Source: Asterella californica (taxonomy: Eukaryota > Streptophyta > Marchantiopsida > Marchantiales > Aytoniaceae). From it: DNA of 64,000 bases. Under the pieces are notes generated by a model. The model worked only from the letters and a program-made list of their open reading frames with translations, was not told the DNA's origin and did not search any database. Each line of letters begins with the position of its first letter. The first letter of the stretch is position 1. The stretch covers positions 25,266,001 to 25,330,000 of the forward strand of contig JAYKYS010000004.1 of assembly GCA_036924285.1 (NCBI GenBank). Reading direction: 5' to 3'. Shown in pieces: positions 1,744 to 29,459 of this stretch. Made by a program: the position numbers and the translations under genes.

Positions 1744-4532
1744 ATGACTAAGCTGAGGGTTGCTTCACTTCCTCGTCAATTGTCGCAGCTCAGATCTGCG
1801 TACCAGGTATTGGGTGGATCAACTCACCAGCAGATCGCCTCCGCCTCTTCCTCCGACGTGCATTGCTTTGATGGGCAGCAGAAGCGCTCGGTCACATACA
1901 TGCCCAGGCCTGGGGATGGAACACCGAGAGCCGTGACCCTTCTTCCAGGTGATGGCATAGGCCCTCTAGTCACTGGAGCAGTTGTTCAGGTGATGAAGGC
2001 CATGCACGCGCCTGTATATTTTGAGACCTACGAAGTGTCCGGTAAAATGGACAAGGTCCCGCAAGAGGTGATCGATTCTATTAGGAAGAATAAAGTGTGC
2101 TTGAAAGGAGGTCTGGCCACTCCTGTAGGAGGTGGTGTGAGTTCGCTCAACGTCCAATTGAGAAAGGAATTAGATTTGTTCGCCTCTTTGGTACACTGCT
2201 TCAATCTGCCCGGACTGCCTACTCGTCACGACAATGTTAACATTGTTGTAATTCGAGAGAACACGGAGGGAGAGTACTCTGGATTGGAGCACGAGGTGGT
2301 CCCTGGAGTCGTGGAGAGCCTTAAGGTATGGTTCTGTCATTTCATCCCTTTCTCTCGAAGGTAATTGTGTCATCGAGGTTGAGTATGTATATGTAAGTGA
2401 ATTTTACATTTCATCTGTGTCTTTTCACAAACCATTGATGAACAGCCGGGAATCTCTTTAGTCCAGCTGTCTCTTTATGTGAGCACTTGCAGTTTGACCC
2501 TCTGTACTGGATTTCAATTAGAGATGGTAGTAACAGGTAAATGAGAGTTACGTCGATGGTAAGGAGATCCTTCCAGCTGTACAGGGCCAAGATGGTGGGG
2601 GAAGTCAGAAAACCCTCACCATACAAATTGGTCTCTTTACAAACCTAGTACCAAGCTTTTAGCAGTGCAGCAGCTGTGGCATCCAATTCGGGGAAGCCCG
2701 AACTAGTGCCCTTCTATGGCAATGATAGGGACCATCGTGACATAAAGCTCTGCCTAACCCTAAATCTGTTTTAATGAGGCGTAAGAGAGATCGCTCTCCG
2801 TACTGAAGAGATACATGCTCTTCCACAGCTCTGCAAGAAAATAGAAACCGTCATAGACGTGTGATATACAACATACGAAGTTTGTGTCCGCTAGTCAGTC
2901 ACTGTAACTGAACGAGTTCTAAGTTTTAGTGTTCAGTCCGGACATAACATTATTGTACAGCGGTTCTTCCACAAACAAAGCACTGAAAGTAGGAAACCTT
3001 CTGTGGCTTCAGTGGACAGCTCAGAATGTGAATTAACGCCCTTTTCTGTATTCAATTCGTCAGTGGAACTCCCTTCACACTAGACGATTCTTGCTATAGA
3101 CGATGGAGGAGACAACATTGGTCCCAAGGAGGATTGATCTCTCAGTATACCCCTATCGTGAATGATCGCATCGAAGCTACTGAGTGCCATTGCACTCAAG
3201 AAGGTATTATGCGCGGTCTCGTTCGCAGAGCACAGTGAATTGTTCGGACAGCAGTTAATCGGATCGAAGCTAGAAAGTCGTAACTGGAAACGCCCAGAGA
3301 TCAAGATCATCTGCTCAAGTTTGCACCGCTTTTAATCTGGAGGGACCGTCTTGAACATTTACTTGTGGCTCTGAGGTTTCTTATTGTGACTTGATCTTGT
3401 TTGCACAAACGCGTTCGTTCTGTTGTACACCCATGTTCCTTTCTCAACTGACTTATTGTATACTCATAGGTGATCACAAAGTTTTGTTCGGAGCGTATAG
3501 CGAAGTACGCTTTCGAGTACGCATACCTGAATGGTAGGAAAACGGTTACAGCAGTCCACAAGGCCAATATCATGAAGCTTGCCGATGGTTTGTTTCTGGA
3601 ATCATGCCGGGATATTGCCAAGAGGTACCCTAGTATCAAGTACAACGAAGTTATCGTCGACAACTGCTGCATGCAGCTGGTTTCCAAGCCTCAACAGTTT
3701 GATGTCATGGTACGTAATGAAGGAGTTGGTTCAATTGTTGTTCCTCGTTTTTGAAAATGCAACATTGCCGACTGGACCACATAAGGGTTCTTCCCGTGTC
3801 AACAACCCCTTGGAACTGCATCCTACAAGCTTTCCTCGGCAGCTCCTTCGGACCTTGCTGCTTTTGGGTCTGTATGACGAGCAGAGTGTTTTGGAATTTG
3901 ACTGGTGGTCAAAACTTTATTGATGTTGCATATATCCTCTCTGAAGAAAATCCTGTCTGGTAATAGATACAGAGCTTTTCCGGCACAGCTTGTGTTTACA
4001 AAGATTCTGTGGTTGTTCAGGTCACCCCGAACCTGTATGGAACATTGGTGGCAAACACCGCAGCTGGTATTGCAGGCGGTACCGGAGTCATGCCTGGAGG
4101 TATGTTCATGCCCAGGAATACTGGATTTTAGGCTGTGAGTATCGGTTCAGCTACTGATTATAATGTCTACAGCCGTATCTAAATAAATCCTGTGAACTGT
4201 TTCCTGTTTTTAAACTAGCGGCCTAATGCAGACTTTGATTTGTTTGCACGGCAGGAAATGTCGGAGCTGAGCACGCCATCTTCGAGCAAGGAGCTTCAGC
4301 TGGAAACGTGGGAAACGAGAAGCTAGTAGTCCAGAAAACAGCCAACCCTACAGCACTTTTGCTATCATCAGCCATGCTTTTGCGTCATCTGAAGTTCCCG
4401 GCTTTTGCCGACAAGCTAGAGCAAGCAGTAATGGGTGTAGTTGCCGAAGGGAAGTACCGTACCAAGGATCTTGGAGGTCTGAGTACCACGCAGGAAGTCG
4501 TGGATGCTGTAATTGAAAAGCTAGACGTTTAG
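1744..4532 (+). CDS. IDH: NAD-dependent isocitrate dehydrogenase, regulatory subunit, mitochondrial (4 exons)
   Basis: Exons read as 1744-2325, 3470-3709, 4021-4099 and 4255-4532, each joined by GT-AG introns with matching phases, giving 392 aa. The start is the first ATG in frame; residues 1 to about 50 are Ser/Arg/Gln-rich and acid-poor, as in a mitochondrial transit peptide. The dehydrogenase core begins near residue 62 ([10 protein letters not shown], 65-74). [16 protein letters not shown] (121-136) is typical of the plant regulatory (IDH1-3) class rather than the catalytic class, which has [22 protein letters not shown] lies at 171-183, and the protein ends in [16 protein letters not shown]. 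The family forms the hetero-oligomeric TCA-cycle enzyme that converts isocitrate to 2-oxoglutarate with NAD in the mitochondrial matrix. Intron 1 is about 1.1 kb. No breaks were seen, so it looks functional. Family assignment is very sure; subunit class is likely. Confidence 0.95.
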
Positions 4533-5208
4533 GTTCAGTTATCGAGATTGAATATCTTTGTGTATGTACAGGTGTGGTTGTCCATACACCTCATAAGTTA
4601 GATCCATACCTCTCCTGCTGTATGGTTCTTGCACCCGATAGCCTGCTGAGTAACCCGAAACGGGGATGATTCTATTGGCACATCAGCTTCGATGTATAGC
4701 GTGGAAACTGCACCAGATTTGAGAAGCTCCGTCTTGAAACGTGCATCGTACTTTGTGCTTGAGTGTACATTGGTGATGACAGTTGATGCAGAGCAGAACT
4801 TCGAAAGTTGCTCCTTTTCACCAGGACAAGCCACCACTGGAGATAACTGCTGTTGGTGAAGGGGAGGCCTATCAAGCTGATCGAATGCGGTTGGTGCTTG
4901 CTTCCATTACAACTGTGCTGTTTCTGGCAATCTAGCTGCAAAGTGGGCTACCTTTGACGTCCTGAGGAATACGTCAAGATAGATACTCAATTTGCCCGTG
5001 TTGAATTTGTGACGTTGTAGCTATCGATTCTGAATTATTCCGAGCTACCGTAACCAAGTAAGTTCTGTCGCTTCAGTGTCTGGTCGGTCGTTCGGTTGTA
5101 CGCACGTATCGTGTTTACATTTCACCCGGTAAACTAAGCCATAACTGGATGTTTCCCCCTAAACTGCAAAGCTCTTGTCATGAGTATGTGAATCAACCTT
5201 CTGTTGCA

Positions 5209-5252
5209 GTTTCCCCTAGTCGAATGTGCATACATGGGACTAGGGGGAAAAC
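5209..5252. repeat. imperfect inverted repeat (hairpin)
   Basis: GTTTCCCCTAGTC at 5209-5221 pairs with GACTAGGGGGAAAAC at 5238-5252, with one extra base and a 16-base loop. It lies about 700 bases downstream of the IDH stop. No function is assigned. Confidence 0.5.
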
Positions 5253-6044
5253 TTCAAGGCTTGGTGTAAATCATGAAACTGCACGGAGAACGGTTGCATG
5301 AACACTTATTCAGTGGTTGTCATTGCCCAGACTGTATTCACGGTGTAGCAGCAGTGACGTGATTCTGTGCTCATCAAGGAAACAAAGAGAGGCAAACGTT
5401 TTATGTGTCTGAAAAGAAGGTAAGGCCTGTAAAGTACGTAACAGATTGCTGTCAAGATTGAGTGATCACCTCGTCAAGGAACGAGTGATTACCACTTTGA
5501 TCGCATCCCATCTAATGTGGTAGCGGAGGGTCAGCCTTTGCGGAAAGCCGCCTTTTTCGGTGAATCACTCCGACAGGAATCACCCGGCAGAGCCACGAGT
5601 TACTCCTGCGTGTTAGTTTGATCGGGCGAAACTAAGTAACTAAGTCGTAACTATCACGACTCACGTAAGGAAGGTGCGACTTGGAGGACTTCGTGAGGTA
5701 TACCTGTTCGAGTTTGGCAGTATTCTTCTTATTCTTACGAATAGAACTGAGGTTCCTCGCACAGTTCTCGAACCATCATTTCCTAAACCTGTTCTCTTCG
5801 ACGAGGACGAGGAATTATGAGGTGGTGTACCTCAGACCTCGAGTTACAAAGTCGAGCAACCGTACAGCGAAGTTCGGCTCTTCAGAGATGTATCACCTGA
5901 CTTTCTCAGCCACAACAGAGACGGGATGCATTCATAGGGCAGTTCCGACCATGCTTCCTGCGTTCTCATGTCTCAGAAATACGCCTTCTGTCTTCGGCGT
6001 AGAACGAGCCTCGTTATTCACTTGGAAGAAGGAATAAACGCCAA

Positions 6045-6296: not shown

Positions 6297-6418
6297 TCAA
6301 GCTCTTTGTAGAATAATGGAAACTCGCTGTCTAAAAAACATTGTACAAAAAGAAAAAGAAAGTGGTATCATTTGGCGTCTCTCATGGTAGGTTCTAGCAC
6401 AATCTCGAAGGAAGACGT
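6297..6418 (-). pseudogene. possible continuation of the methyltransferase-bearing retroelement
   Basis: Removal of the solo LTR at 6419-8468 and one copy of its ACGT target joins this minus-strand stretch to the methyltransferase remnant at 8469-9195. One frame stays open through it. Expected methyltransferase motifs IX and X are not recognisable here, and the left end of the old element is not visible. Confidence 0.3.
6415..6418. repeat. target-site duplication ACGT (left) of the solo LTR
   Basis: ACGT at 6415-6418 is repeated at 8469-8472, directly flanking the solo LTR. A 4-bp duplication is also seen for the related complete element (CCGG). Confidence 0.65.
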
Positions 6419-8468
6419 TGTCGTGTCGTGGACCGGCTCCTACTTGAAATTCAAATTTGATGCTTATCGATCCAAAGACACTCCTGGAGGAAAGTGAGAA
6501 AAGCAAGCTAGGCCTCAGCTTATACGCTTTTGACACGACTTCAGATCTTCACTTTCATCGCATCAGTGGATAGAGCTCTTTGTCAGCACTTCATAGGCAC
6601 TTCGTCTACTTCGTTTGAGCACCTAGTGGAGAAGTTACAGGACTCGAAAGATGGAGAAAACAAGCTAGGCCCCAGCTTACGAGTTTTTGGCACAATTTCG
6701 GATCTTCGCTTTTATCGCATCAGTGGATAGAGCTCCTTGTCAGCTTTCCATAAGCACTTCGTCTACTTCGTTTGGATGCCTAGTGGAGGAGTTACAAGAC
6801 TCGAAAGATGAAGAAAACAAACTAGGCCTCAGCTTACAGGCTTTTGGCGCAACTTCGAATCTTCACTTTCATCGCATAGATGGGTAGAGCTCATTGTCAA
6901 CTTTCCATGGACATCTTGTTTACTCCGTTTGGACATCTAGTGAAGAAGTTATGTGATTCGAAAGAAGGCAAAATCAAGTTAGGCCTTAGTTTACTTGCTG
7001 ATTGGGTATTTGAGGCTTCAAGCGCTATATCAAAGACGTAAGGGGCCTGTTTCATTATTATTGAGAGAACTTCGTACGTACAGAGACTGTTACAAGAGGG
7101 CTGCTTAAGGGGCTTGCTTGTGCCTGCGACCTGTCAACAGACGGTTCGGGAGATTTGGAGGTCCAATACAACACACAAGGCGTCGTTGGATATCCGTGCA
7201 GACTACGTGTGGGTTAAGATGGTTCTTGAAGATCTAGGCACTATCTCGGAGAGAGAGAGACGGATCGGAGAGTGCGTACTGAGAGAAATTGAGACGCAGG
7301 AGGCAGATTTAGAGTTTTCAATTACCTGTGAAGGAGAGTTGGACCGTTCGGACCGTTTCGGAGTCCAAACTTGTTGTCCTTGGATCCATGGGGATCAGAA
7401 CAACGAGTTCTACAAGAAATTGAAGACGATACGAAGTTCCATCAGGCGGTTTGGGAATTCTGAGCGAAATTGGCTCGCGGGAAAGCGCTTACATCAGATT
7501 TTCGTTCCCCTGCAACCTGAGGTTGGATTGTTCTTCGCGACCGGTGAGCCAAGCACTTCGTTCTTGATGCCTACGCGATCAGGGAGTCTTCATCTACGCA
7601 TAGGAGAAGACTGTACGTGAATTGGATTGTTGGTTTGGGTGTGGTGAACGAGTTTAAGCCGCAGGGAGTCGATTTACGTCAGTTTTTTGCAACCTGCGAC
7701 CAAATTTCTCGTGTGGTTTGCAACGGGAACTCCAAACGGCTTGTTTGGAGTCTTGTGGGTTCAGGGTAGCTAGATCTATCTACAAGAGAAGCCGGATATC
7801 AGTTTAGACGATCCGTTTGTGCGGTGTGTGCGGTTTTAAGCCACATGGAGCAGTTTTTGAAAGTTCGATCACCTGCGACCGAAAATCGGCGATATCTCGG
7901 CTATCAAGAGTCGGATCTGAAAGTTTATAGGGTTAACAGAGTCAGCAGAGGAGACCCTATCAACATATGAAGTCCGTTCGGCGAAAGGAGGAAATTCTCA
8001 GATAGATTTTTTTCGATTTCTTCGCTACGAGTTTTGCTCTTTTGAGTTCGTTAGAGTTCTGGTTGGCTATATACAGTTTGTGGTAGCTAGTTATGGCTAA
8101 GAGCTAGTACATGGGTGTGGTTTGGACTTGGGTTTGGATCGTGTGATACTGCTGTGGCTCTGTTTGTTAGCAAAGGGAAGTTTCTCTTGTTTTGAGCTAC
8201 GCTTTGATGGTTTTGGTTCAAGGTTGTGATTCAAGGGTTGTTTTTAGGGGCTTTTGAAGTATGTTACGATCGCTCTGATCTGTTTCTCAGTTTTGTGCTC
8301 TTAGGAGAAAGAACCGACAGTGTACATACATTTGGAGTTGGTATATGTCGCAACATTCATTTTCGTGGTTGTTTTTCTCTGTCTTGTCTCTGTTTCAGCA
8401 CACAACATCTCCACAGTCAGGAACCTCGCGTTTTCCTGGACATCCTTCACGCAATATTCGACACGATA
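6419..8468 (+). mobile_element. solo LTR of a gypsy-type retrotransposon family
   Basis: This 2050-bp unit matches the two LTRs at 11004-13024 and 15552-17564 over its full length. It begins TGTCGTGTCGTGGACC and ends CGACACGATA, where the others end in CGACA; the final CA has become TA. It is flanked by ACGT on both sides and carries no internal element sequence, the signature of recombination between two LTRs. Open frames inside it (for example 7114-7620) are not genes. It interrupts the methyltransferase region of an older minus-strand element. Confidence 0.85.
6490..6990 (+). repeat. ~157-bp tandem subrepeats inside the LTR
   Basis: The marker TAGAGCTC or close variants recurs at 6571, 6728 and 6885, a 157-base period. 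Each unit also holds the motif ACTCGAAAGATG. Equivalent arrays occur in the other LTRs at about 11100-11560 and 15640-16100. Their place in the first quarter of the LTR suggests the U3 promoter-enhancer part, which is an inference. Confidence 0.8.
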
Positions 8469-9195
8469 ACGTCAAACTCCACCAACTACCATGGGCCGTC
8501 CCACTAGGTTCGTCAATGCCATGGATGACTTATCGACGACTCTCACTACTTGAGATCGTCGTTATGCATCCAAGATGCTATCAACTGTGAGGTGCGCTGG
8601 TCGTCTCACTACATCGTGTGTGTGCTTGAGCACCTCTCTTGGTAACAAGTTCGTCCACCACAACCGTGGATGATGTGCCGAGATCCCACTCTCGCTGCAT
8701 CCAATAGCACTTCCGGTCGGACCCAAGACCGCACTTGGTGCACACTCGTCGTCATCTGTGTATGAGCATCATCCAACAAAGAAACGTTCTCTAAGATGTA
8801 CGCTGGAGAATCCACCTGATGCATCTGGAGATGTCGTAAGATCCGTAGCATCTCCCAGAACATCCTAGATTGCGGGTCATGTAAACCCTGATCTCTCCAG
8901 CACGCGTGTGATCTTGACATGGTCATCCGGCTATCACCAAGTGAATGTTGTCAACAAACGTGAGATCCTGTGCCTCCAACAGCGAAATATTTGACGGTAA
9001 TGCTTGTTGGTATCCTCTAACAACTGATATGGACAACAACTCAAGATATCTCTGCACCAAACGCAATGAGATGCGTCTCGTAACCTCATTTCTCTTCACA
9101 TACAAATATTGTTGTACTTGTATGTCTATCTGCAATATCGTAGCCAGATCTGTGCTGATCCCTCCAAACAGCTCCAGCACACATACACCCTCCTC
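8469..9195 (-). pseudogene. DNMT3-like cytosine-5 DNA methyltransferase domain inside a gypsy-type retroelement
   Basis: Minus-strand reading gives C5-methyltransferase motifs in the usual order: motif I (VLELFGGIST, from about 9180), motif IV (LVIAG, stop, PCQDHTRAG, with PCQ at 8914-8922), motif VI (YILENV, ENV at 8783-8791), and motif VIII (AHHPRLWWTN, about 8645-8680), followed by part of a target-recognition region. Motif VIII resembles the DNMT3 form (AHRARYFWGN) more than DRM or CMT forms. Such enzymes transfer a methyl group from S-adenosylmethionine to cytosine. The copy is dead: TGA at 8923-8925 sits where Trp is expected, and at least two frameshifts follow. It lies downstream of gag and protease remnants in the same orientation, so it belongs to the element rather than to a host gene. 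The solo LTR truncates it on the left; motifs IX and X were not found. Confidence 0.8.
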
Positions 9196-9383
9196 TGTAT
9201 ACTGTCATACAATGGGAGTGGTATTCAACGGTGATAAAGTCACATGGCCAGTAGCAGGAACAACTCTTTGTTCCTCTATTGGTGGTGCAAAGGCTTCACT
9301 CCAAGCCTGCTGCACCAACCGATCAGCATACTACTGCAACTCTCCACTTGAATTCTAGAGTGAAACATCCAAGGCAAATGATA

Positions 9384-10004
9384 CTAACGTAAACATGCTA
9401 GGAATGTCCTCCACCTCCTCAAAGACCGAAGTATCCTCCCATGGACATTGTCCTCTAACAACTCGTCCGGCCAAATGATAGCCGAACTGAATCTTACAAC
9501 GGATGTCGTCGTCCCTGGTGTAGACTCCGTTGTCCCAACTCTAGCACTGAATCGCACTGGTAAGCGACTTACTCGTCCTTCACCGGACTGCCAACTTGGT
9601 ATGTAAGATGTTGTCTCCGTCCAATACTCGATCATGAACCTCATAGGGTATAACACAACACCTCCAACCAATACATCATAAGACTCCGCGGCCGTAACGA
9701 TGACCTTGGTCCTCACCATGGAGCCATCCGTGGGATGATCTGGTCAAACTCTCACCATCAACATCTCGCGTGTCATGTGTAGAGTTGTACCTCCTGATCC
9801 TCCTAGAGATATCTGTAGCTGAAATGGACATCGCTCCACCTCGGACTTCCTCAAACCCAAACCAATGCACACCATCTTTTTCAACATCAAAGGTTGGGTT
9901 CCAAAGTCTAACAAGACTTTATGTTGTGGATACACCTTCCTTGAATGTGACATCAACCAGAAGATATCACTTTTGTTGTCCAACAACACCACACCTGGTG
10001 CCAA
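9384..10004 (-). pseudogene. retropepsin (protease) remnant of the methyltransferase-bearing gypsy element
   Basis: Two minus-strand frames (10004-9744 and 9719-9384) cover an aspartic-protease region. The active-site motif reads KVLLDFGTQPLML, with the catalytic Asp codon at 9906-9908 and Phe where Ser or Thr is expected, so it would be inactive. A C-terminal signature follows (YDVLVGGVVLYPM). It sits between the gag zinc knuckles and the methyltransferase motifs, all on the minus strand. Frameshifts separate the parts. Confidence 0.65.
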
Positions 10005-10064
10005 ACTAGCACGGTCAATCGCCGACCTAGCTGATAATTCATCTAACTTGGCAGCCGCCGCTTG

Positions 10065-10673
10065 TCAAGTACCACTGGTAGCTATCATGATCCTCGACTC
10101 CATGGACACATCTATCGTCTCTCGCTTAACCACCTCAACACTAGAGATAACTACATCCTCGCTCTCACTGAGCGTGGTCGCCAACTGGAACACTGTAGCG
10201 AAGCTGACTCCCAAAGCTCTCATATCCATGGTTGAAAATAGTGAGACTCGGAAAACTGCTATAATCGCTCTCAACATCGGGTTCGACGTCGTCACATCCA
10301 CAGAAGTAGAGGGTTGTCTCGCATCACCACCACTCCTAGATGTCGATGTCTCTAACTCCACTGCACCATCGATAGGTCGTTTAGACACCATAGACGTGAT
10401 CCTCAACGTCTCCGATAATGTGAATGACTGAGGAAGCATGATCTGTCTACCAGCCTCCCCGCGTTGTGGATCCAACTCCATCGACGCATCTCGTGGCTCT
10501 AGATCGCGTATTGCACCCCTAGTCACTGTCGCAGATGTCTCTATCTGTGTCACACCAATCATGAAGCCGAAGTCAACTCCTTCTCCTCCATAAGACGTAG
10601 AAGCATATGATAGAACAGCAGGTATGGCTGTTCTATCATATCTCCGCTGAGTCATAGTCATACTAGCTATCAT
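10065..10673 (-). pseudogene. gag-protease linker of the minus-strand gypsy element
   Basis: A 202-codon minus-strand frame with Ser/Thr-rich, low-complexity composition links the gag zinc knuckles to the protease. No domain is recognised. It contains the 15-bp-arm hairpin at 10605-10641. It is assigned to the element only by position and orientation. Confidence 0.45.
10605..10641. repeat. perfect 15-bp inverted repeat
   Basis: ATATGATAGAACAGC at 10605-10619 is exactly complementary to GCTGTTCTATCATAT at 10627-10641, with a 7-base loop. It lies within the retroelement gag-protease linker. Confidence 0.85.
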
Positions 10674-10679
10674 TTGCTC

Positions 10680-10999
10680 CTACTGCTCAATCCGAACAGT
10701 CATATCTGCTTCTGACACGATAGCAAGCGATGGATTGACTGATCCTCTCTCTTGTGCTGGATCTCTACCTCCAGCTCGACCACCACGGCCTCCTTGAGCT
10801 CTTCCGTCTCGTCCACGATCAACCTTCTCTTGCCGTAGCTCGGGTTGGAGATCAAAACAATGATCACTATTATGACCTGGTCGTCCGGAATGCTCACACT
10901 GCCTAGGCACCACTTGAGACGTCTCATACGTCTCATAACCACCTCTCCTCTATGGACAGTCCTTCTGTTGATGAGGACCATCACACGTCCAGCAAAGAT
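10680..10999 (-). pseudogene. gag zinc-knuckle region of the methyltransferase-bearing gypsy element
   Basis: Two zinc knuckles are read on the minus strand. The first is CWTCDGPHQQKDC (10956-10994, CX2CX3HX4C). The second is CEHSGRPGHNSDHC (10857-10898), in which the second Cys has become Ser. A Gly/Arg-rich tail follows. A TAG stop lies just after the first knuckle. The upstream part of the same gag lies at 17569-17885, displaced by the element inserted at 11004-17564. Confidence 0.75.
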
Positions 11000-11003
11000 C
11001 CGG
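11000..11003. repeat. target-site duplication CCGG (left)
   Basis: CCGG at 11000-11003 is repeated at 17565-17568 on the other side of the two-LTR element. Collapsing the two copies restores the reading frame of the interrupted minus-strand gag, which independently supports both element boundaries. Confidence 0.8.
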
Positions 11004-13024
11004 TGTCGTGTCGTGGACCGGCTCCTACTTGAAGTTCAAACTTTGATGCTTGTCGCTCCAAAGACACTTATGAGAAGACAAGCTAGGCCTTTGCTTACGG
11101 ACTTTTGACACAACTTCGGATCTTCACTTTTATTGTATAGATGAGTAGAGCTCGTTGTCAGCTTTCCATGGGCATCTTGTCTACTTCGTTTGGACGTCTA
11201 GTGGAAAAGTTACAGGACTCGAAAGATGGAGAAAACAAGCTAGGCCCCAGCTTACGGACTTTTGGCACAACTTCGGATCTTCGTTTCTTCGCATCAATGG
11301 ATAGAGCTCTTTGTCAGCACTCCATAGGCACTTCGTCTACTTCGTTTGGACGCTTAGTGGAGGAGTTACAAGACTCGAAAGATGGGAAAAACAAGCTAAG
11401 TCCCAGCTTACGGACTTTTGGCACAATTTCGGATCTCCACTTTCATTGCATCAATGGGTAGAACTCATTGTCAGCTTTTCATAGGCACTTTATTTACTTC
11501 GTTTGGACGCCTAGTGATGAAGTTATGCGATTCAAAAGAAGGCAAAATCAAGCTAGGCCTTAGTTACTTGTTGACTGGGTATTTGAGGCTTCAGGCGTTA
11601 TATCAAAGACGCAAGGGGCCTGCTTCATTTGAATTCTAAAAGAACTTCGTACATACAGAGACTGTGACAAGGGGGCAGCTTAGGGGCTAGCTTGCGCCTG
11701 CGACCTATCAACGGACGGTTCGGGAGATTTAGGAGTCCAATGCAAGCGCGCAAGACGTCGTTGGGTTCAGATCTGTGCAGGCTACGCACGGGTTCAAATG
11801 GTTTGGGAAGAGACAGATCGAGGGATGCGTATTGGGAGAAATTGAGACACAGGAAGCAGATTTGGAGTTTTCAGTTATATGTGAAAGAGAGTTGAACCAT
11901 TCGGACCGTTCCGGAGTCCAAACTTGCTCTCCTTAGATCCATCGGGATCAGAACGACGAGTTCTTCAAGAAATTGAAGACGATATGAGTTTTCATCGGGC
12001 TGTTTGAGAGTTCTGAGTGAAATTGGCTCACCGGGAAGCGCTTACATCATATTTTCGTTCGCTTGCGACTTGAGATTGGGTTGTTCTTCGCGATCGGTGA
12101 ACCAAGCTCTTCGTTCTTGGTGCCTACACGATCAGGGAGTCTTCATCTACGCATAGGAGAAGACTGTACGTGAATTGGATTGTTGGTTTGGGTGTGGTGA
12201 GCGAGTTTGAGCCGCAGGGAGCCGATTTACGTCAGGTTTTTACAACCTGCGATCAAATTTCTCGAGTGATTTTGCAAGGGGAACTCCAAACGGCTTGTTC
12301 GGAGTCTTGTTGGGTTCAGGATAGCTAGATCTACCTATCAGAGAAGACGGATATCAGTTTAGACGATCTGTTTGTGCGTGGTGTGCGGTTTTAAGCCGCA
12401 GGGAGTAGTTTTTGAAGGTTCGATCACCTGCGACAAAAAATCGGCGATATCTCGGCTGTTGGGAGTCGGATCTGAAGGTTTCTTGGGTTAACGGAGTCAG
12501 CGGAGGAGACCCTATTGACATCTGAAGTTTGTTCGGCGAAAAGAGGAAGTTCTCAGATAGGTCTTTTTCGATTTCTTCGCTACGAGTTTTGCTCTTTTGA
12601 ATTCATTAGAGTTCTGGTTGGCTATATACAACTTGTGGTAGCTAGTTTTGACTAAGAGCTTGTACATGGGTGTGGCTTGGACTTGGGTTTGGATCGCGTG
12701 ATATCGTTGTGGCTCTATTTGTTAGCAAAGAGAAGTTTTTCTTGCTTTGAGCTACGCTTCGGTGGTTTTGGGTCAGGGTTGTGATTCAGGGGTTGTTTTT
12801 AGGGGCTTTTGAAGCAGGTTACAGATCGCTCTGGTTTATTTTTCAGTTCTGTGCTCTTAGGAGAAAGAACCGGCAGTGTACATACAGTTGTAGTTGGTAT
12901 ATATCGCAGCGTTTGTTTTCGTGGTTGTTTTTCTCTGTCTTGTCTCTGTTTCAGCACACAACATCTCCACAGTCAGGAACCTCGCGTTTTCCTGGACATC
13001 CTTCACGCAATATTCGATACGACA
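11004..13024 (+). repeat. 5' LTR of the gag-only element
   Basis: Starts TGTCGTGTCGTGGACC and ends TCGATACGACA. It is homologous end to end with 15552-17564 and 6419-8468 and contains the ~157-bp subrepeats at about 11100-11560. Confidence 0.9.
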
Positions 13025-13361
13025 TCGGTGGTGAACTCGACGTGAAGGTCCGGGGTGGAGATATTTGTGTGTTAGAACTGGGCAGACGAGATCAGTAATC
13101 ATGAACGAGGATGAAGATGGATTTGGTTGTTCGGGAGGATGTTGTGGACCTGGGATGATGGATTTGTAGATGGTTGGGATCATGGGAGGATGGGAAGATG
13201 GGACGAGCCATGACTATGGACGGATGAACGGATCAGAGGGGATACCAGGGGTGCAGTTGGATGCAGCAATTGCATGTTTGTTTCAAGCCTTCACTTTGTT
13301 TCTGCGACAAGAGCAAGGGAACCAACAAAAAAAGACTTCAGGGACTAAGGCGCTTTGAAGG

Positions 13362-14795
13362 ATGATCGACAAGCTCGATCTATTTGATGAGGAAGACATC
13401 TCAAAGTACTTGAGATGTTACAAGACGGAGATGGATTTGGATCAAGTATCGGAGAAGGAGATGATCGGGACATTCGAACTCGCTACGGTGTCTGAGATAA
13501 GGGAACATGTGAAGGGTCTAACAAAGCGTTTTGGGAGGAATTGAGATACATTTTCACATGCGCTGAGGGAGGAGTATTTCTTGAGAAACTCAGATCGAGT
13601 AACCAAGAAATCATTTCTGGAATGGGTTAACCGATCCAGCAAGGGTTTGCAGCCTATAGAGTTGTTGAAGGAGTTCGAGAGACAATTCTCTCAACTATCT
13701 CGGGTGGAGAAGCTAATCTTGGAGAGCTACAAGACAGAGCTGTTTCTTCAAGCTGCGGATGAACCATGGCAGGAACAATTGGAGCTACTTCTGGAGGATG
13801 GAGAGGATGAAGAAAGGTTGACAAGAAATTGGGAGGTTGTGCATGAAGTGGTTGAGCTTCTTGTCTAGAGACGTACAAGAGAAAGGGTTACAAGGTTGAC
13901 ACCTACATCACTGACTATCGTACCAATTCGGGTAGTATCTGAGGTTCAACCTCCAATTGTGTTTGTAGAGGAGAAGGATCCAACCATCGAGGACCTGCGA
14001 CAAAAGATGCAGATCTACAAGCTAAGGTTACTAGGTTGGAGGATAAGAGATCGTCGACCAAGATGGAGCTTGTACCCAAATCAACTTGGGTACATCAATG
14101 CATGTGGTGTGATAGTACTGACCATCAGCGAGATGATTGCATCGACTTTGCAGAGTCTTTGCAACGAGAGGTTATTTCTTGGGAGGATGGAAGTGTTAGG
14201 TTCAGAAGTACAGGTACTCTCCTTCAAGCCAACGTTGGTAAAGGAGGGATGAAGAGATTGGTGGATGATTACTTTGCGGCACATGCAGTTGTAGCTATCG
14301 AAGCTACAAGTTATGGTGCTAGGGTGGAGGAGATTGAACATGATCTCCATATGGATGATTTGGGTGAGCACATGGATCCAAGCGAGCTCAAGTTGGATAC
14401 AAGCATCCACGATGCAGAGCGAGAAGAAGGAACAAGAAGAGACTTCTTCAGAGAAGCAAGTTGGGGAGGATAAGGTTCAACAAGAAACTATTCTTCCTGA
14501 ACTGGCAATGGAGGACGATCCTTCACAACCGGAGGAGATGGTTGAGGTGCAGATAGTGGATATGGTTGATCTGGTTGCAGATAAACAACAACTAGATATT
14601 GGGATGATGAAGATAGATGCGAAGGGAGGTTGGGAGGAGTGCATTCGAGATGCAAAGGTTGGGTTCATTTCACGGGAAGTCTTGGGTGCAGCTACAAGAG
14701 AAGTCCATGATGTCATCATTGACATCATCAAGGACCGACATATTGAGGATGAACGAGAGTGGACGGATGTTCTCGAGGCTACGGGTATAGGATGA
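13362..14795 (+). pseudogene. gag of the gag-only gypsy element, with stops and a frameshift
   Basis: Frames at 13362-13544, 13581-13868 and 13896 onward are in the same register, separated by stops (TGA at 13542-13544, TAG at 13866-13868); the frame then shifts near 14012-14036 and returns by 14313. The zinc knuckle CMWCDSTDHQRDDC (CX2CX4HX4C) is at 14099-14140. A distal segment (DAKVGFISREVLGAATREV) matches the pre-protease segment of the pol remnant near 56.7 kb. The protein would coat the element RNA in virus-like particles. It is broken here. The same gag lies on the minus strand at 63.3-64 kb. Confidence 0.75.
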
Positions 14796-15536
14796 TGGGT
14801 AAGGATGGCTTACAGGAGAGAAGCCATTGCTGAAGGTGATTATATTTGAGAGGTTGTGAAAGTTTACATGTGATTAAGGTTGGGAGGATGAGGCTTAGGA
14901 GGTTGTAAAGATTTTCAGAAGAAGGTTGAGAGAATGATGCTTGGGAGGTTGTAAGGATTTTCAGGAGAAGAGATCAAAGAGGATGACGGTTGTAGAGGAT
15001 ACTATTGTACAGAGGGGATGATGGTTGAAGAAGATATCATTGTACAGCGAGACAATGACGGTTGCAGTTGAGGATTTTGGTAGCAGCAATGTGGTTCTTT
15101 TTTTTCAGAAAACAGAAAAGAAGAGTTGGATACATACAATGACATGTACAGACTTGAGGTTGAGGGTTACAATCAAGATACAGGTGATGATTGGCAGGAT
15201 AGGGAATGTCTACTACGACACTTGGGTCACAAATCTCGACGGTGAGGTTCTACAGGACGGATGGAAGACATTTCTATCATATGATGGTTCATTGCTTCTA
15301 TGTCTCAGGATGTAGATATTTAGAGGGGGTGATTAGATGGGAGGTTGAAGAAGAAAGTCAATGAGATGGATCTAGAGAAAATCATGACAAAGTTGTAACT
15401 TCAAGATGGCGATCAGGTTGCAACCTTGAGATTGACGTTGATTGAGATGAGAGGGAGGATGACAAGATGAGAACGAGTGTGCGTGTCGGTCCACTCTTTG
15501 GTTGGTATCTCTGGTGCATACCGGAGGATGCACAAG
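14796..15536 (+). other. internal non-coding tail of the gag-only element
   Basis: No protein domain was recognised. The stretch holds repeated short GGAGGTTGTAA- and GAGGATGA-like motifs and one open frame at 15025-15315 without family support. It occupies the place where protease, reverse transcriptase and integrase would be in an autonomous element. Confidence 0.5.
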
Positions 15537-15551
15537 TTTAGAGGGGGTGGA
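15537..15551 (+). promoter_or_regulatory. polypurine tract of the gag-only element
   Basis: The purine-rich GAGGGGGTGGA directly abuts the TG of the 3' LTR. Its position and composition match the plus-strand primer site of LTR retrotransposons. The minus-strand relative at 62311-62326 has AAGAGGGAGTGGA in the same place. Confidence 0.75.
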
Positions 15552-17564
15552 TGTCGTGTCGTGGACCTGTTCCTACTTGAAACTCAAACTTCTATGCTTG
15601 TCGCTCCAAAGACTCATGATAAGACAAGCTAGGCTCCTACGGACTTTTGACACAACTTCGGATCTTCACTTTTATTGCATAGATGGGTAGAGCTCGTTGT
15701 CAGCTTTCAATGGGCATCTTGTCTACTTTGTTTGGATGCCTAGTGGAGAAGTTACAAGACTCGAAAGATGGAGAAAACAAGCTAGGCCCCAGCTTACGGA
15801 CTTTTGGCACAACTTCGGATCTTCGTTTTCATCGCATCAGCGGATAGAGCTCTTTGTCAGCACTCCATAGGCACTTCGTCTACTTCGTTTGGACGCCTAG
15901 TGGAGGAGTTACAAGACTCGAAAGATGGAGAAAACAAGCTAGGCCCCAGCTTACGGGCTTTTGGCACAATTTTGGATCTCCACTTTCATCGAATCAATGG
16001 GTAGAGCTCGTTGTCACCTTTTCATAGGCACTTTGTTTACTTCGTTTGGACGCCTAGTGATGAAGTTATGCGATTCGAAAGAAGGCAAAATCAAGCTAGG
16101 CTTTAGTTACTTGCTGACTGGGTATTTGAGGCTTCAAGCGTTATATCAAAGACGCAAGGGGCCTGCTTCATTTGAATCTCACAGAACTGCATACGTACAG
16201 AGACTGTGACAAGGGGCAGCTTAGGGGCTAGCTTGCTCCTGCGACTTGTCAACGGACGGTTCCGGAGATTTAGGAGTCTAATGCAAGCGCGCAAGGCGTC
16301 GTTGGGTTCAGATCTGTGCATGCTACGCACATGTTCAAACGGTTTGGGAAGAGACGGATCGGGGGGTGCGTACTGGGAGAAATTGAGACTCAACAAGCAG
16401 ATTTCACGTTTTCAGTTATCTGTGAAAGAGAGTTGGACCGTTCGGACCGTTCCGGAGTCCAAACTTGCTGTCCTTGGATCCATCGGGATCAGAACGACGA
16501 GTTCTTCAGGAAATTGAAGACGATACGAGTTTTCATCAGGCTGTTTGGGAGTTCTGAATGAAATTGACTCGCAGAGAAACGCTTACATCAGATTTTCATT
16601 CGCTTGCGACTTGAGATTGGGTTGTTCTTCACGATCGGTGAACCAAGCTCTTCGTTCTTGGTGCCTACACGATCAGGGAGTCTTCATCTACGCATAGGAG
16701 AAGACTGTACGTGAATTGGATTGTTGGTTTGGGTGTGGTGAGCGAGGTTGAGCCGCAGGGAGCCGATTTACGTCAGTTTTTTACAACCTGCGATCAAATT
16801 TCTCGAGTGGTTTTGCAAAGGGAACTCCAAACGGCTTGTTTGGAGTCTTGTTGGGTTCAGGGTAGCTAGATCTACCTACCAGAGAAGACGGATATCAGTT
16901 TAGATGATCTGTTTGTGCGTGGTGTGCGGTTTTAAGCCGCAGGGAGCAGTTTTTGAAAGTTCGATCACCTGCGACCAAAAATCGGCGATATCTCGGCTGT
17001 TGGGAGTCGAATCTGAAGGTTTCTTGGGTTAACAGAGTCAGCGGAGGAGACCCTATCGACATCTGAAGTCCGTTCGGCGAAAGGAGGAAGTTCTCAGATA
17101 GATCTTTTTTGATTTCTTCGCTACGGGTTTTGCTTTCTTGAGTTCATTAGAGTTCTGGTTGGCTATATACATCTTGTGGTAGCTAGTTTTGGCTAAGAGC
17201 TTGTACATGGGTGTGGCTTGGACTTGGGTTTGGATCGCGTGATACTGCTGTGGCTCTGTTTGTTAGCAAAGGGAAGTTTCTCTTGCTTTGAGCTACGCTT
17301 CGGTGTTTTTGGGTCAAGATTGAGAATAAGGGGTTGTTTTTAAAGGCTTTGAAGCAGGTTACAGACTGCTCTGGTCTGTTTTTCAGTTCTGTGCTCTTAG
17401 GAGAAAGAACCGGCAGTGTACATACATTTGGAGTTGGTATATATCGTAGCGTTCGTTTTCGTGGTTGTTTTTCTCTGTCTTGTCTCTGTTTCAGCACACA
17501 ACATCTCCACAGCCAGGAATCTCGTGTTTTCTTGGACATCCTTCACGCAATATCCGACACGACA
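15552..17564 (+). repeat. 3' LTR of the gag-only element
   Basis: Starts TGTCGTGTCGTGGACC and ends TCCGACACGACA, followed by the CCGG duplication at 17565-17568. It is homologous throughout to the 5' LTR and includes the ~157-bp subrepeats. Confidence 0.9.
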
Positions 17565-17568
17565 CCGG

Positions 17569-17885
17569 TTGCTGCTGACTAGAGAAGGACGGCATGGGTT
17601 TCTCTCCTTGGGATCGTGACTGCTGAGCACGATTCTTACCACCACCACCACCACCATGTTGTTGCGTAGTCTGTGATCCTCGAGAAGAAGTGGTCGTTCC
17701 ATGTGGTGTCTCCCTGCTGAACCTAACAGTCATCATCCTCTCCTCCACCATGTTGAGCTCAATCCGTTCAGCAAGATCAAAGACAACCGTCAACGTCAAA
17801 GTGATGTCTCTAAGGAGAGTTGCATCTTTGACTCTCTTACACAGCTCTCGGTCTAGTATCTCATATCAGAATTGGACTTCCTGTG
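17569..17885 (-). pseudogene. upstream part of the gag interrupted by the 11-17.5 kb insertion
   Basis: Minus-strand reading gives a helical gag-like segment (LCKRVKDATLLRDITLTLT), a Gly-rich run encoded by a CCA microsatellite near 17640, and a Gln/Ser-rich stretch ending SSQQQP. Deleting the inserted element and one CCGG joins this directly, in frame, to the zinc knuckle CWTCDGPHQQKDC at 10956-10994. Further upstream the frame is broken and neither the gag start nor a 5' LTR was identified. Confidence 0.7.
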
Positions 17886-19560
17886 CTTCTATCACCCCTT
17901 GAGTGTCGAAAACACACTCCAAAAGATCGAAAATCTATCAAATTGGTACTCGCAGGCGGTTTATGTCTTTTGGACCACCTGCGACCTTCTTCGGCTTGTA
18001 ACTCTTCGATCTTTCATCAAATCGAACGAGTTTTGGTGCGTTGGAATCATCTTCCCAGCACACACCTACTGCACTCTTCAGCACCAGAAATTGCTGACTC
18101 ACGTCAACCTGACACTCGCTGACGTACTTCTGTCGACATCAAAATCTATGACAAGAAATTCCAACAACGCTTCTGCACTACCTCACTATCAAATCCGATC
18201 AAGAATATGTTCAAAAAGTAGTAATCCACACAGCGATCGATCACAACAAAAAAAAACCACTTCGCTCACGCGCGCACCCGCAAATCAAGATATCAACGAT
18301 TTGTAAACTCCGGAGATACCACCGTAGAAATCTGCGATCTGAAAGCTCTCAATCAGATCTCGCAATTTGAATTCTTCAAGTGATAAACGGTATGTACTCA
18401 CTCCACCATGCCAACTGACGCTAAACAATCGCTAAAGTCGAGTCAAATCCACTCTGTGCTCGTAGAGACTCCAGATTGCACTCACCAAGACGATCCACCA
18501 TAGCTAGGAGCTTGAAGGCTCAACTTGAAGAATTAAGACCTCCAAGCCGTACTTGCGAAGTATACCCCTAGTGGGTCATCCCCAGAACTCGTCTTAACGG
18601 CACTAACGACCTTACCGGGATTAGTCACTCCGCACTCGATCAACCTAGTCGAGGTGCTAAACTGACATGACACATATCACACGTACTGATTCCTCTTGTA
18701 GGGCCGCTCAATCATCTGCACAGAATCTTCAAAGACAAACCGTCATCTCCTGACGTCTTTCTCTGTCACCTCGAGTATAACAGAGACACCAACGAGAAAG
18801 TAAGAGAAATAGTAACCATGCCATCTCGTCTTTGGTGTTCCGTGCTAACATGTCGAGAGATAGACGGAATGCCTACCTCGTCTCGTCATGAAAAGCACGG
18901 GGTAATCGATGAAACAAATACGAACAAAGAAAACTCGTCTCGAACTATCTCAGAATAGCGTCAGAGTGAACTCTCAATCATCCGCATGACTCAGGAGAAA
19001 CTCCAAGAAGAAAGACTAACGGTGTCATAATGGCTGCACGTGTAGATCTCCGCTCTCGACTAACCTGGACATCCCATGTAGTCTTATCATAGCTCTTGTG
19101 CATCTTCTCACATGAGATTTTATCCTTTGCGAGATAAATAATTGATCGTACACCGGACATAGTGTGTCTAGAATCGATCTCAGTCTCATGAGAGAAAGAG
19201 TATTCATAGCTAAAAAAGAAATAATATCCAACCAAACGATACTCGTAATAAAAACATCTAAAAAAAAATTTCACTAAAAAAGAAAACTCTGATATATAAA
19301 GATAAAATATACTAAATATAATAAAAAGTCTTTCAAATATCTCTCAAAAACTTTAAACAAAAAATTATAAAATCTTAAAACTCAAAAAAATTCAAAAAAA
19401 TTTAATACTCACTCATTTCTTTATCAAATATAAAAAATAAAAATAAAAATTTATCTGAAAAATAACCCACCCCTTCCCATCTCACTCCACCCTCTCCTAT
19501 CGCAATCCCTACCCCACCCTCTCCTCTCCCGCACTCGCGCGGGCGCGTCCCCGAATCAGA
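17886..19560. other. non-coding DNA with a compositional switch
   Basis: No gene is recognised. It probably includes the 5' leader or LTR of the old minus-strand element, but no primer site or LTR pair could be found. From about 19200 to 19460 the sequence is very AT-rich, then abruptly C-rich and pyrimidine-rich (about 19465-19545). Confidence 0.4.
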
Positions 19561-20636: not shown

Positions 20637-23600
20637 ATGGAGAAGGAAAATATTCACGGGGTGGAGATCAAGCTGAATAATGGACTGTTTATACCTTGTC
20701 TCGGAGTGGGCACACTTTTGTTCAAAGAGACTCCAGAACAGTTTCATGAGTCCATTCTAATGGCATTCAAGGTACGAACCTAAGCATGACAATTCTGAAC
20801 TTTCCTGGAATATGAGACCCGTTCTTACAACATCGCCGGTTGCTCTGCCAGCGCCCCATCGATGGTTGATTTCTTATCCTTGTGACTTGCTATTATGTTC
20901 GAGTGTGGAGGTTGTTGTCACCCAGATATTTGATTCAAGACAGAAAAAGATTACTTCTGTTTTTCCCTTTTGGACTCTAGCCGATAGACTATCGGCTTTA
21001 TGGTGACTTCATGTCTAATAAGTGAAAGACCTCTCCTCTCGGTTTAGCCCGATCTGTGGCTTTCGTTTTATCTGGTACATCTTCGATTTTACCTGTGCCT
21101 TCAACCTCCGTACGGTATCCTGGATGGATGTGGGGAAGCAGTCATGCTCCGGTTTCCAAGCTCACAGTTGGTATTCTGATTCTTCGAGTATTTGCAGAAA
21201 TGAATCACTTGGACAACCGTGTGATAGAATAATTTAAAGAGCTGCAGAGAATATATTTCTGGTTGAAAGATAAATTTCATCACTGATTGCAGATTCTCGA
21301 CAGCTAGAATTCCACTACTAGTATGTGCGTTTTGAACTTCTCCGCATAGGAACTACAACAGAACTTACCACTCGCAGGGTGCATAAACTGACTAGAAGAC
21401 CCTTCTTACTAAAGCGTCGTAATGAGAATTCACGTTCAAAAGGATCTTAAATACTGAAGAGGATACAAAAGTTTCCTGGGCACGGTTTGAGCACTGCACT
21501 GCATATCACGGTCGACTGCAAGTCCTTGTTGATATGCGGCAAGTGATTACCACTCGCTCGCTGGAAACTTTGCAGATCGGCTACAGACACCTCGATGCTG
21601 CAAGATTGTATGGGACCGAAGCTTATATTGGCAACGCACTCCAAGAGGCCTTCAAAGATGGACTCGTGAAGCGGGAAGATGTGTTCGTTACAACCAAGGT
21701 CTGGTGTGACAAAAATACACCTGCAGAAATCATTTCCGAATTGCACGAAAGTCTCAAGTAAGCCTGGCTAGACTCTACACCTGATCACTAGATGTTCTGA
21801 GTTTCCCTTTACTGCAACAGTTGGTGGAGAATATACACGATGAACATGTCGAGTGTTACTAACAGTCTTACCCTCTTTTTATAAAAAAGAAGGTACAATC
21901 TTACTAGTTAACAGTCAGTCATGGACAGACAGGCAATCAGCATAACTTTCTTCACCACCACAAAAGAAAAGAAAGTCGATCGGTGTCACAGCAAAGTTCC
22001 CTAGCCGACAAGTATCTTGAATAAAGACTCATCGCTTCTTATCCAAAACGCCTGTGGTAAATTGTGCAGATCCTTACAGCTGGACTACGTGGATTGTTAT
22101 CTGATCCACATGCCTGTGAGAATCAAGGAAGGAGCGCAGTTCTTTGATGTAAAGGAGGAGGATTACCTTCCATTTGATCTCGCAGGCTGTTGGGAAGCTA
22201 TGGAGCACTCACTCGACTTGGGACTGACTAAATCTATTGGCGTTAGCAACTTCTGCGTCAAGATGCTGCAAGAGTTGTTGAGGAACGCGAAGGTTGTCCC
22301 TGCAATAAATCAGGTATGTATACATTACGTTTCCTCTTACAGGAGGTTTGTCACTTTCTTCAGTTTGTCCCGACAATCTCCAAGAATACTTGAGATTTCC
22401 TTTGATTGGACGAACCGTGCGCCCTCACAAACCTTTGAAGTAATAACTGCTCCGAGCAACTTCCTGGACGAATACATACAGTCAGGATTCAGGACCGAAC
22501 AGGTACCTGGGGAGTCGGGACGTATCCACCAGTCCACTGCGATATTGGCAAGCCTCAAACTAGTAATTGCTGTTGCAAGGCTGAAACGAGCACCACTGTA
22601 AATTAGAAGTTTAGCCTAGTCCGTTAAGTTTTCGTTTGTTGGTACTGAGTGGTATGGACAAACGAGACGATTAGAAGGAGCAGATCGAGTTCAAATTACA
22701 AGGGCAGAATGATTACTCCGGTCCCTTGCGAGTACAAAAATACATCACTCGCACTTCTGCCTGGTTAATTCACTAATCGGAAAGTAAATGACACCTAAGG
22801 GCCTCTTCCCACCTGCTAGTTAGAGCCGTATCGCATAGCCTGGTCCCAGAGAAGGAGAAGGGCTCACCTCCCGACCTCTACATACTTCCTCGAGAAGCGA
22901 ATTGATCATCGCTTCGCTTCACTTCACTTCCGGGGGAAATATGTCCCGCCAAGTAAGAAGCCTTCGTGCCAAATAAGAAACTTTGTTGGGATGGCGAAAG
23001 ACATCCTCTGCTTTCTCCAGGTGATCAGAAAAACCTGGTGGTTCTGCTGGTAGGGCCAATACGTTCGGGAGACGAAAGTGTCTCTGGAAAATCCGGTAGA
23101 ACCAGAACTGGTCTTTTGCCTCGTTGCTCACGCGAAGTCTTTTCCATGCGCTGAACTGTGTGCTCGACCTCGTTGCTCACATGAATCCTTTTCCTGTCAT
23201 CACATCGAACTGGTCCTCTGCAAGCTAAAGGATGCCGACATCTCGTACATAAGTTTAAGAGGGACTAGACTATCACATCACGCGTAGAATATCACATAAT
23301 GCTTCTTGCTCGAAGCTGGGTCGGTCTTATTTTGCTACATAGAGCAGATCCTGCGCTATAGAACGTCTGATTACCAGAATCAAGAGCTGGACTCGACAGT
23401 AGCTTGAAACACTTCAGAAGCAACTGGCATGCATGTGTACCCTTGCAGGTGGAGCTACATCCGATGTGCCAGCAGAAGAAGCTTCGCGCATACTGCGAAA
23501 AAATGGGCATCCATGTGAGCGGGTGGAGTCCTCTTGGAGCACCAAATGTGCCATTATATGGATCAAACGATGTACTGGAGAACCCTACTCTGAAGAGTAT

Positions 23601-27741: not shown

Positions 27742-29459
27742 ACGTGCAGCGCTTGACGTCCGCCTGTCACCCGAAGGCTGAAGTTCTGTGTGAGAGCCAG
27801 TAGACTTCCAATAGGAAAACTACAGTACACTGCAGTAGTGCACAGTGCTGCTGGTCTTCCAACGTCCAGAAGGATGGGACAGGGGCACCACAGGAGCCCT
27901 GGATTGGACCGGACTGCTAAAGCCATGAACGGACTGGTTCGGTCACTGGAGCCATGAAAGCAGAGGAAACCGGACGAAAGCTTTTACTCTTCCTTCTTCA
28001 TCACTTTCCCTTTCTCCTCCCTCTTCTTTCAGGGTTTGAGCTTGTAGCTGTTGTCTCAGTGTTAGATGTTGTGGTTGTCGGGATTCACAACACTGCGCAC
28101 TGCTCGGAGAGGCTGTAACCCCCTCCTTTTTCACCTCACTGCACACGCTGCTGCGCTGCAAGGGAGTAGCAGGCTCCTCCCGTCACTCGCTCTCTCTCGT
28201 ACTAGGTTTTAGTAGGTAGGTAGGGGAAGATTAGATAGTTTGTAGGGGAAGCCGAAAGTCTTCTCATCATCAAGCTAGATGGAGAGAGAGAGAGATGTAA
28301 CACAGACTTGTGATTCCCTGGAAGCTTTTCTGCAAGAGTGAGCGGAGTCATACGGAGTACATTGAGCACTGGCGGACCGGATGGGGGCCTGGGGACCGCA
28401 GCTGTGACTTAACTTTGCTTTCTAGGCAAGGAGGGACTTCACTTGAATTGAATGGGAAGAAGTAGCGGCAGTAAGCGCCAGCCAGGAGGGAAGGAAGCAG
28501 AGGAGAGAGAAGAAAGACGGTTGAGGTAGTCCGTGTGTGTCGCTTTCAGGTTCCCGTTGGATCCATTATCCAGTCCCTGGCAGGGTGGTCTGGACTCTGT
28601 ACTCCGTCGGTTTTCTTCTCACGTGTGTCATTGGTTCGAATTAAATTTTTGTCCTGCGCCACTTTCTTCTCGCAGCCCACGCTTCTCTTGCGAGCCGAGC
28701 CGAGCCGACTTGACCTGGAGGACGTTAGGTGCTCCCACGGTAACAATCCGGTGTCTCTTCATGCTATGAGTGATCTAAACGGTCCCTTTGAGTGATCGTG
28801 GTGACAGTCTGATCCCTTCTACGCTCAAGTGCATTTCTTCTGTGGCTCGACGACTCCTGTCATTGCGTTTTGAAACTCGCGATGCTGCTGTTCTTTGGTT
28901 AACAGAGTGCGTGTGCGGCACAGTCGAGTAACTCTTTCCTGTTACGAGAGGCGGAATGGCAGAAGTTTTCATTTTGAGTGGAGCATTGTAACGTAAACAC
29001 TGTTTTGGGAAATTGACGAATTGGATATCTCGCTATTTCTATGCGTGCAACCTGATTGGGTTGCTCTAGCTCGCGCGTACGTGGATACCTGTTCATGGGA
29101 ATAAGGCTTCAGATTAATTGCGTTTGTATCTGATGCAGCGTCTAAACAGACGATGGTCTCCCCAGACAGAGGTCGATTTCCCGTGCTTCCGGGTTTTAGA
29201 TCTTCTAGCGCCAGGGGATTGTTGCAAGGTGCGATAAGGGTTGAATTGGATTCTTGGTTATGAGAGGAGTTTGTGAGACAACCAAGTTTTTTCTAGTAGG
29301 ATAGGTACTGGAAGACGAGGCCGTAGTTGGTAGCGCCAAAGACATTGGTCAACTTTCTGACCAGAGTGAGTTTAGTACAGAAGAGCTTCTTTGACAGTTG
29401 ATGAGCATGACGTGAGGCCGGTTGTTCGATTCATATACAGTGATCAAAGGGTATTAGAG
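27742..29459 (+). promoter_or_regulatory. upstream region and probable long 5' leader of the SMI1-like gene
   Basis: No coding gene is recognised. GA-rich tracts (around 28280-28296 and 28480-28520) and pyrimidine-rich stretches are typical of plant promoters and leaders. Several short ATG-led frames occur, including a 4-residue uORF at 29401-29415 ending 44 bases before the main start. The transcription start cannot be fixed. Confidence 0.35.

Follow-up and report, generated by a model that had tools for sequence, protein, structure and literature searches.

The window analysed here, a stretch of 64,000 bases (C313:25266001-25330000) of a 516.7-Mb assembly, carries on its minus strand, at 8478-9204, a decayed C5-cytosine methyltransferase (MTase) with the motif order of DNMT3, joined to the zinc knuckles of a Gag protein. 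Its relatives in the same genome have the reverse transcriptase (RT), RNase H and DDE integrase of Gypsy-type elements, as the preliminary description of this DNA had proposed. They display a common gene order, repeats split as A ... B-A-B, 4-bp target duplications, and an MTase under constraint like that of the RT.

The methyltransferase copy in the window

The remains of this copy, together with the insertions around and within it, are as follows.

6419-8468, strand not assigned: solo LTR of the nested element's family, 86% identical to the other two LTRs
8478-9204, minus: decayed C5-MTase with motifs I, IV, VI and VIII and internal stops; motifs IX-X gone
9549-10064, minus: decayed protease-like region, named from motif and position; DSGA homologous in a genome copy
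10857-10999, minus: two CCHC-type Gag zinc knuckles, from the empty-site translation; the same knuckles occur in a genome copy
11004-17564, plus: separate nested LTR element (LTRs 11004-13024 and 15552-17564), sitting in the Gag of the MTase element
17565-17904, minus: Gag fragment lying upstream of where the nested element inserted, matching element positions 2773-3130 at 81%; open frame 17865-17575
18437-18672, minus: what is left of the 5' A repeat of the element (A 1-237), 81% identical to A of copy C32

Motifs I, IV, VI and VIII, which had been described as ordered on the minus strand, are present at 9204-8478; the order is kept, and the motifs are spread over three frames with stops, with frame changes near 8900 and 8690 (pieces 9204-8896, 8911-8681 and 8705-8478). 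When the three pieces are joined, with X placed at the breaks, the read-through matches the Pfam family PF00145 (DNA_methylase) at E = 1.1e-8 and, among solved structures, DNMT3A at 1.7e-8, followed by DNMT3B and 3C; the structures of HaeIII, DNMT2 and DRM are far weaker (0.005 and weaker). Pfam thus does return a C5-MTase, and the earlier assignment to a DNMT3-like domain stands. A single piece by itself (8609-8950) reached PF00145 at E = 0.022, under the cut-off, and had no match in the PDB. As a control independent of the joining, tblastn of a DNMT3A fragment against the whole window gave its top match at 9180-8911 with 31.2 bits, and the highest score of the same search on 30 Markov-random windows was 25.4 bits, so that the match in the window exceeds chance.

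The copy is indeed broken, as had been stated. It retains A positions 1-237 (81%) and element positions 2773-3130 (81%) and 3128-5641 (86%), and it has lost most of the leader, the N-terminus of Gag, motifs IX-X of the MTase, the 3' repeats and the whole of Pol. Nucleotide identity of the MTase to the element stops at 8486, and a search of the window with two phage C-termini as queries found no convincing C-terminal MTase motif elsewhere. Folding the N-terminal piece of the MTase from its sequence alone was uninformative (mean pLDDT 39), Pfam had no match over the cut-off for ten minus-strand frames around the element, and the Rfam and tRNA scans gave no matches.

The gag zinc knuckles of the preliminary description are borne out at the empty site of the nested element, where CWTCDGPHQQKDC and CEHSGRPGHNSDHC share one frame with one stop between them. 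The first knuckle begins directly after the insertion site, and in the second a Ser replaces one Cys; the Gag piece of the window had no match in Pfam. Over its 521 codons the frame 10949-9387 contains 3 stops, whereas 2000 random sequences averaged 24.7 and never had fewer than 11. The retropepsin claimed upstream of the MTase fares less well: its position fits, and the ORF1 of a relative reads LLDSGAQPLML at the protease position, but the expected active site of the window copy reads DFG instead of DSG, and Pfam, NCBIfam and the PDB yielded no protease match for it. The search of the relative's ORF1 against Pfam likewise returned no protease and no Gag family, which counts against the protease label, a weak one drawn from motif and position. 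A PDB match of the protease-like region to designed beta-trefoil proteins (6e-5, 39 residues) was taken for chance. Within the decayed Gag-protease frame lies a 37-base imperfect inverted repeat (10605-10641; 81% self-match in reverse orientation).

Insertions into the element

Three LTR copies surround the MTase of the window, an arrangement that would suit an MTase owned by the flanking LTR element. The nested element and the solo LTR, however, each have their own 4-bp duplication, CCGG at 11000-11003 and 17565-17568 for the former and, from the flank reading, ACGT at 6415-6418 and 8469-8472 for the latter, which adjoins the MTase; moreover, the genome relatives of the MTase element have quite different terminal repeats. 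That ownership can practically be dismissed, and the flanking LTRs were dropped as the MTase element's own after the target duplications were found. Being the target of both insertions, the MTase element is older than both.

The LTR pair of the nested element is 92.8% identical (K2P 0.071), and the solo LTR stands at K2P 0.13-0.14 from these two LTRs. A purine tract lies ahead of 15552, and the plus strand holds gag-like ORFs with a CCHC-like knuckle, judged by eye. Pfam gave nothing over the cut-off for the nested element, and no pol was seen in its 2.5-kb interior; with its 2.0-kb LTRs it looks, from its sequence, non-autonomous. Units of about 157 bases are repeated in tandem within each LTR of this family (6496-6994, 11072-11559 and 15618-16101), and part of the nested element's interior recurs at 63325-64000 with 84% identity.

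Elsewhere in the window there are pieces of host genes for an isocitrate/isopropylmalate dehydrogenase (1636-2361; 6e-21) and an aldo/keto reductase (22005-22601; 1.3e-10), a minus-strand remnant of a further retroelement (41262-41687; integrase core rve, 6.3e-13), and a plus-strand open frame of 580 residues (29376-31118) with a weak SMI1_KNR4 (SUKH) match under the cut-off (E = 0.02).

Relatives in the same genome

Searching the genome with the MTase piece gave 4920 first-look candidates, of which 150, counting the window copy, were scored; all have E <= 2.8e-33, and the longest open frame among them is 1369 aa. Ten of the 150, picked for long open frames, were examined as 20-kb stretches, and with 13 shorter stretches and seven loci (L012-L018) they make up the 30 genome copies used.

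The element is about 9.9 kb long and consists of A, an ORF1 encoding Gag, a protease-like region and the MTase, an in-frame UAG, ORF2, and then B-A-B. This order follows from the repeat positions of copy C32 (A at 4278-4571 and 13811-14104, B at 13701-13808 and 14104-14211). A purine tract precedes the first B, and the palindromic GACAGCTGTC stands at the junction of that B with the second A. Among the ten long copies, nine have the 5' A, nine have B-A-B and eight have both; seven of these eight measure 9.7-10.0 kb and the eighth 7.9 kb. With the ends defined as TGTCACG and CGACA (TG...CA), the 4-bp target duplications are exact in seven of the eight, and the eighth matches at three of four bases. 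In none of the nine copies with a 5' A is this repeat followed by B, which means that there are no two equivalent full LTRs. Some copies are young: in six of the eight with both A repeats, the two are 99.3-99.7% identical. DIRS elements, which use a tyrosine recombinase, insert without target duplication; the present element, with an rve DDE integrase and duplications in 7/8 copies, differs from them on both counts.

ORF1 is 1369 aa long and, among the ten long copies, unbroken only in C11_15.87M, about 3 kb upstream of whose 5' A (4268-4561) lies another B-A-B end (L019, 594-1104), placing two elements close together. In the translated relative, ORF1 has two CCHC-type knuckles, LLDSGAQPLML, and an MTase with WPCQGH, ENV, AHRPRLWWTN and a C-terminal stretch resembling motif X, of which Pfam recognizes only the MTase (1.1e-7). 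The junction of the MTase to Gag and the protease-like region, on which the original proposal depended, therefore recurs in relatives within a single ORF, which in one copy measures 1369 aa. ORF2, of 1041 aa, is unbroken in C32 and C1_40.99M; in C32, Pfam finds RVT_1 (3.5e-33), RT_RNaseH (5.6e-36), Integrase_H2C2 (3e-16), rve (6e-13) and, at the C-terminus (residues 996-1040), a PHD finger (8.1e-11). As for the intact copies to be sought in this genome, ORF1 or ORF2 is unbroken in some of the ten long copies and both together in none.

The context of the UAG is AGA-UAG-CAG-UYA (CAG UCA or UUA) in 29 of the 30 genome copies, in a scan that permitted any six bases ahead of CAG, and is absent from L047; it matches the signal of the tobacco-mosaic-virus type, UAG-CAR-YYA. 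Wherever it was followed, ORF2 continues in the frame of ORF1 past the UAG. The heptamer TGGTATC, with which initiator-Met primer-binding sites start, occurs 64-72 nt past the 5' A in eight of the nine copies that have this repeat, the ninth (C1_40.99M) having a differing leader; it may be a primer-binding site and is given as a lead only.

Selection on the methyltransferase

At dS >0.03, the 409 MTase pairs have a median dN/dS of 0.41, the 116 RT-RNase H pairs one of 0.37 and the 40 integrase pairs one of 0.28, and the final 101 codons, which include the PHD finger, have 0.23 over 34 pairs; at dS >0.15 the medians are 0.38 for the MTase (110 pairs) and 0.44 for RT-RNase H (26 pairs). These values are rough, since the pairs are non-independent and share history and the decayed copies among them shift the ratio towards 1, and those for Pol come from fewer copies. 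The MTase and the RT are similarly constrained.

This bears on whether the MTase is a passenger, captured once, now decaying and without a role, as the stops in the window copy and in many of the 150 scored matches could suggest. Such a history is disfavoured, and we regard it as improbable: the dN/dS of about 0.41 is similar to that of the RT, the catalytic motifs PCQ, ENV and RxR are intact in the translated relative, and stop-free frames extend up to 1369 aa.

Origin of the methyltransferase

Against the PDB, the MTase of the element ranks DNMT3A first, with DNMT3A/B nearest, and the best DNMT2 has an E of 0.043 versus 1e-11; the bacterial enzymes HaeIII (0.0064) and HhaI (0.15) follow far behind, in a library from which phage MTases are absent. 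The order of its motifs fits that of DNMT3, I-IV-VI-VIII-IX-X. DRM chains align over motifs I-IV only, and in place of the rearranged DRM order (VI-X and then I-V) the window copy and the translated relative have a linear one.

BLASTP orders the candidates differently, with three phage MTases at 68-78 bits (25-29% identity; phage MTases match at about 25% among the matches listed), the DNMT3A fragment at 60 bits (28%) and the first exon of the host DNMT3 at 42 bits (47% over 38 residues). In a 13-row tree that included seven phage MTases, the host DNMT3 and human DNMT3A, and that came with long-branch warnings, a branch 4.49 changes per column long separates the four element MTases from all others, and the host DNMT3 and human DNMT3A join at 81/82. 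Given the weak match to the host gene and this tree position, the MTase of the element, judged on its sequence, is DNMT3-like and was not copied recently from the host DNMT3 gene.

The BLASTP scores and the isolated branch would also accord with an MTase taken from a phage or a bacterium instead of from a host DNMT3. We consider such a source unlikely, in view of the PDB ranking, made without phage MTases in the library, and of the Klebsormidium nitens elements, which form a divergent Dnmt3 clade in the authors' tree as the main text of PMC5890265 presents it. Viral contigs, scanned twice at the protein level, yielded no relatives of the element, and two pattern scans matched six stretches, none of them a relative. 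The sole match in a prokaryote genome (L001) was a chance AHHPRLWW in a frame without an MTase, and was rejected.

As to the host's own enzyme, a search of the genome for DUF3444 gave three matches, two of them strong and in long frames without an MTase. The third (L041, C1:40146813) scores 27 bits against a cut-off of 26.1 and comes after split MTase exons with FDGMGG, FPCQD, AENV and LLGNTFSVP; from these motifs, L041 is apparently the DNMT3-DUF3444 gene of the host itself, split into exons. Genes of this kind are described for non-flowering streptophytes by Yaari et al. 2019 (PMC6453930), who also have angiosperms without DNMT3; in PMC12344493 the extra DNMT3 domain belongs to land plants, and algae lack it. 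On the strength of this gene, the host is probably a non-flowering land plant. The element shares with these plant enzymes (PMC6453930) the DNMT3-type MTase and differs in that its ORF1 has no DUF3444 match.

Comparison with known elements

The capture of MTases by retroelements, which had been mentioned for dinoflagellates and charophytes, is documented in the main text of de Mendoza et al. 2018 (PMC5890265) by elements of Symbiodinium and K. nitens. The closest of these is KnitGypsy-Dnmt3, a Gypsy element with Dnmt3 from the charophyte K. nitens. According to that text, it has, like the present element, an intronless, non-rearranged Dnmt3-type MTase, repeats ordered A-coding-B-A-B along with Gypsy domains, and purifying selection on the MTase, which is weaker here (0.41) than in K. 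nitens (<0.2). With repeats, domains and a selected Dnmt3 in common, this kind of element is, on the published description, already known.

The differences concern the layout. In KnitGypsy-Dnmt3, the DNMT is described as part of the Pol polyprotein ORF, whereas here it lies in the Gag-protease ORF ahead of the UAG; in addition, the integrase of the present element ends in a PHD finger. The main text of PMC5890265 contains neither "PHD" nor "readthrough", and the UAG layout, the PHD finger and the target duplications do not appear in the text covered. These three features accordingly set the present element apart from KnitGypsy-Dnmt3 as the main text describes it. In the portion of PMC12344493 covered, LTR elements with DNMT3 are classed as Copia, not Gypsy.

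SymbioDIRS-Dnmt3 of Symbiodinium, as given in the main text of PMC5890265, likewise combines a Dnmt3-type MTase with A-coding-B-A-B repeats, but has a tyrosine recombinase where the element reported here has a DDE integrase and 4-bp duplications. The same text reports that, in yeast, CG is methylated by MTases from the DIRS elements of Symbiodinium, and that those of K. nitens and SymbioLINE produced no detectable methylation there, a result the authors call inconclusive.

Proposed mode of action

From the gene order and domains, we lean slightly towards a Gypsy-type element whose MTase, made at Gag levels by way of a leaky UAG, would methylate the element itself, and whose PHD finger would guide the integrase, with copies arriving pre-marked. 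Ribosomes would mostly halt at the UAG, so that the MTase would be made in the same amount as Gag and enter the particle, with Pol arising in small amount from occasional read-through. At integration or ahead of it, the MTase would then methylate the cDNA or the newly made copy of the element, and the PHD finger would direct the integrase to chromatin bearing a particular histone mark. Methylated before integration, new copies would arrive marked like silent host DNA, a marking that would spare the host and hide the element. The internal B-A junction would be the template that restores the outer ends, as has been proposed for DIRS-like elements.

A fuller version, in which the element would be both writer and reader, joining the Gag-level MTase, the PHD-steered integrase and pre-methylated DNA to a hybrid cycle that restores its ends in the DIRS-like way and integrates by a DDE integrase, strikes us as possible and distinctly doubtful. 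As a conventional two-LTR cycle would be unable to regenerate split direct repeats, this same version calls for an undescribed DIRS-like/DDE hybrid.

The targets of the MTase may be other than the element's cDNA, namely host DNA in trans or RNA, including genomic RNA, or the enzyme may serve to restrain the element's own spread. RNA methylation and self-restraint are discussed for retroelement DNMTs in the main text of PMC5890265. The CpG content of the element is in keeping with such targets, the observed/expected ratio in the five copies measured being 0.75-0.76, with 0.68-0.99 in the flanks; it is lower than in the flanks in two of the five and equal or higher in three, so that a footprint of self-methylation is not clear. 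Against an RNA target, the nearest solved structures, DNMT3A/B, methylate DNA, and DNMT2, a tRNA methyltransferase, ranks far lower (0.043 versus 1e-11). Targets of this sort, or self-restraint, are a minority prospect, and self-methylation of the element's DNA is the reading we slightly prefer.

Significance

Cytosine methylation silences transposons in their hosts, and an element that keeps a selected MTase makes this weapon of the host a part of its own. The phenomenon described for a charophyte alga would here be extended to what is probably a land plant. As young copies are present, the role of the MTase is directly testable. The element also combines split direct repeats with a DDE integrase and 4-bp duplications, a mix relevant to the question of how the ends of reverse-transcribing elements are restored.
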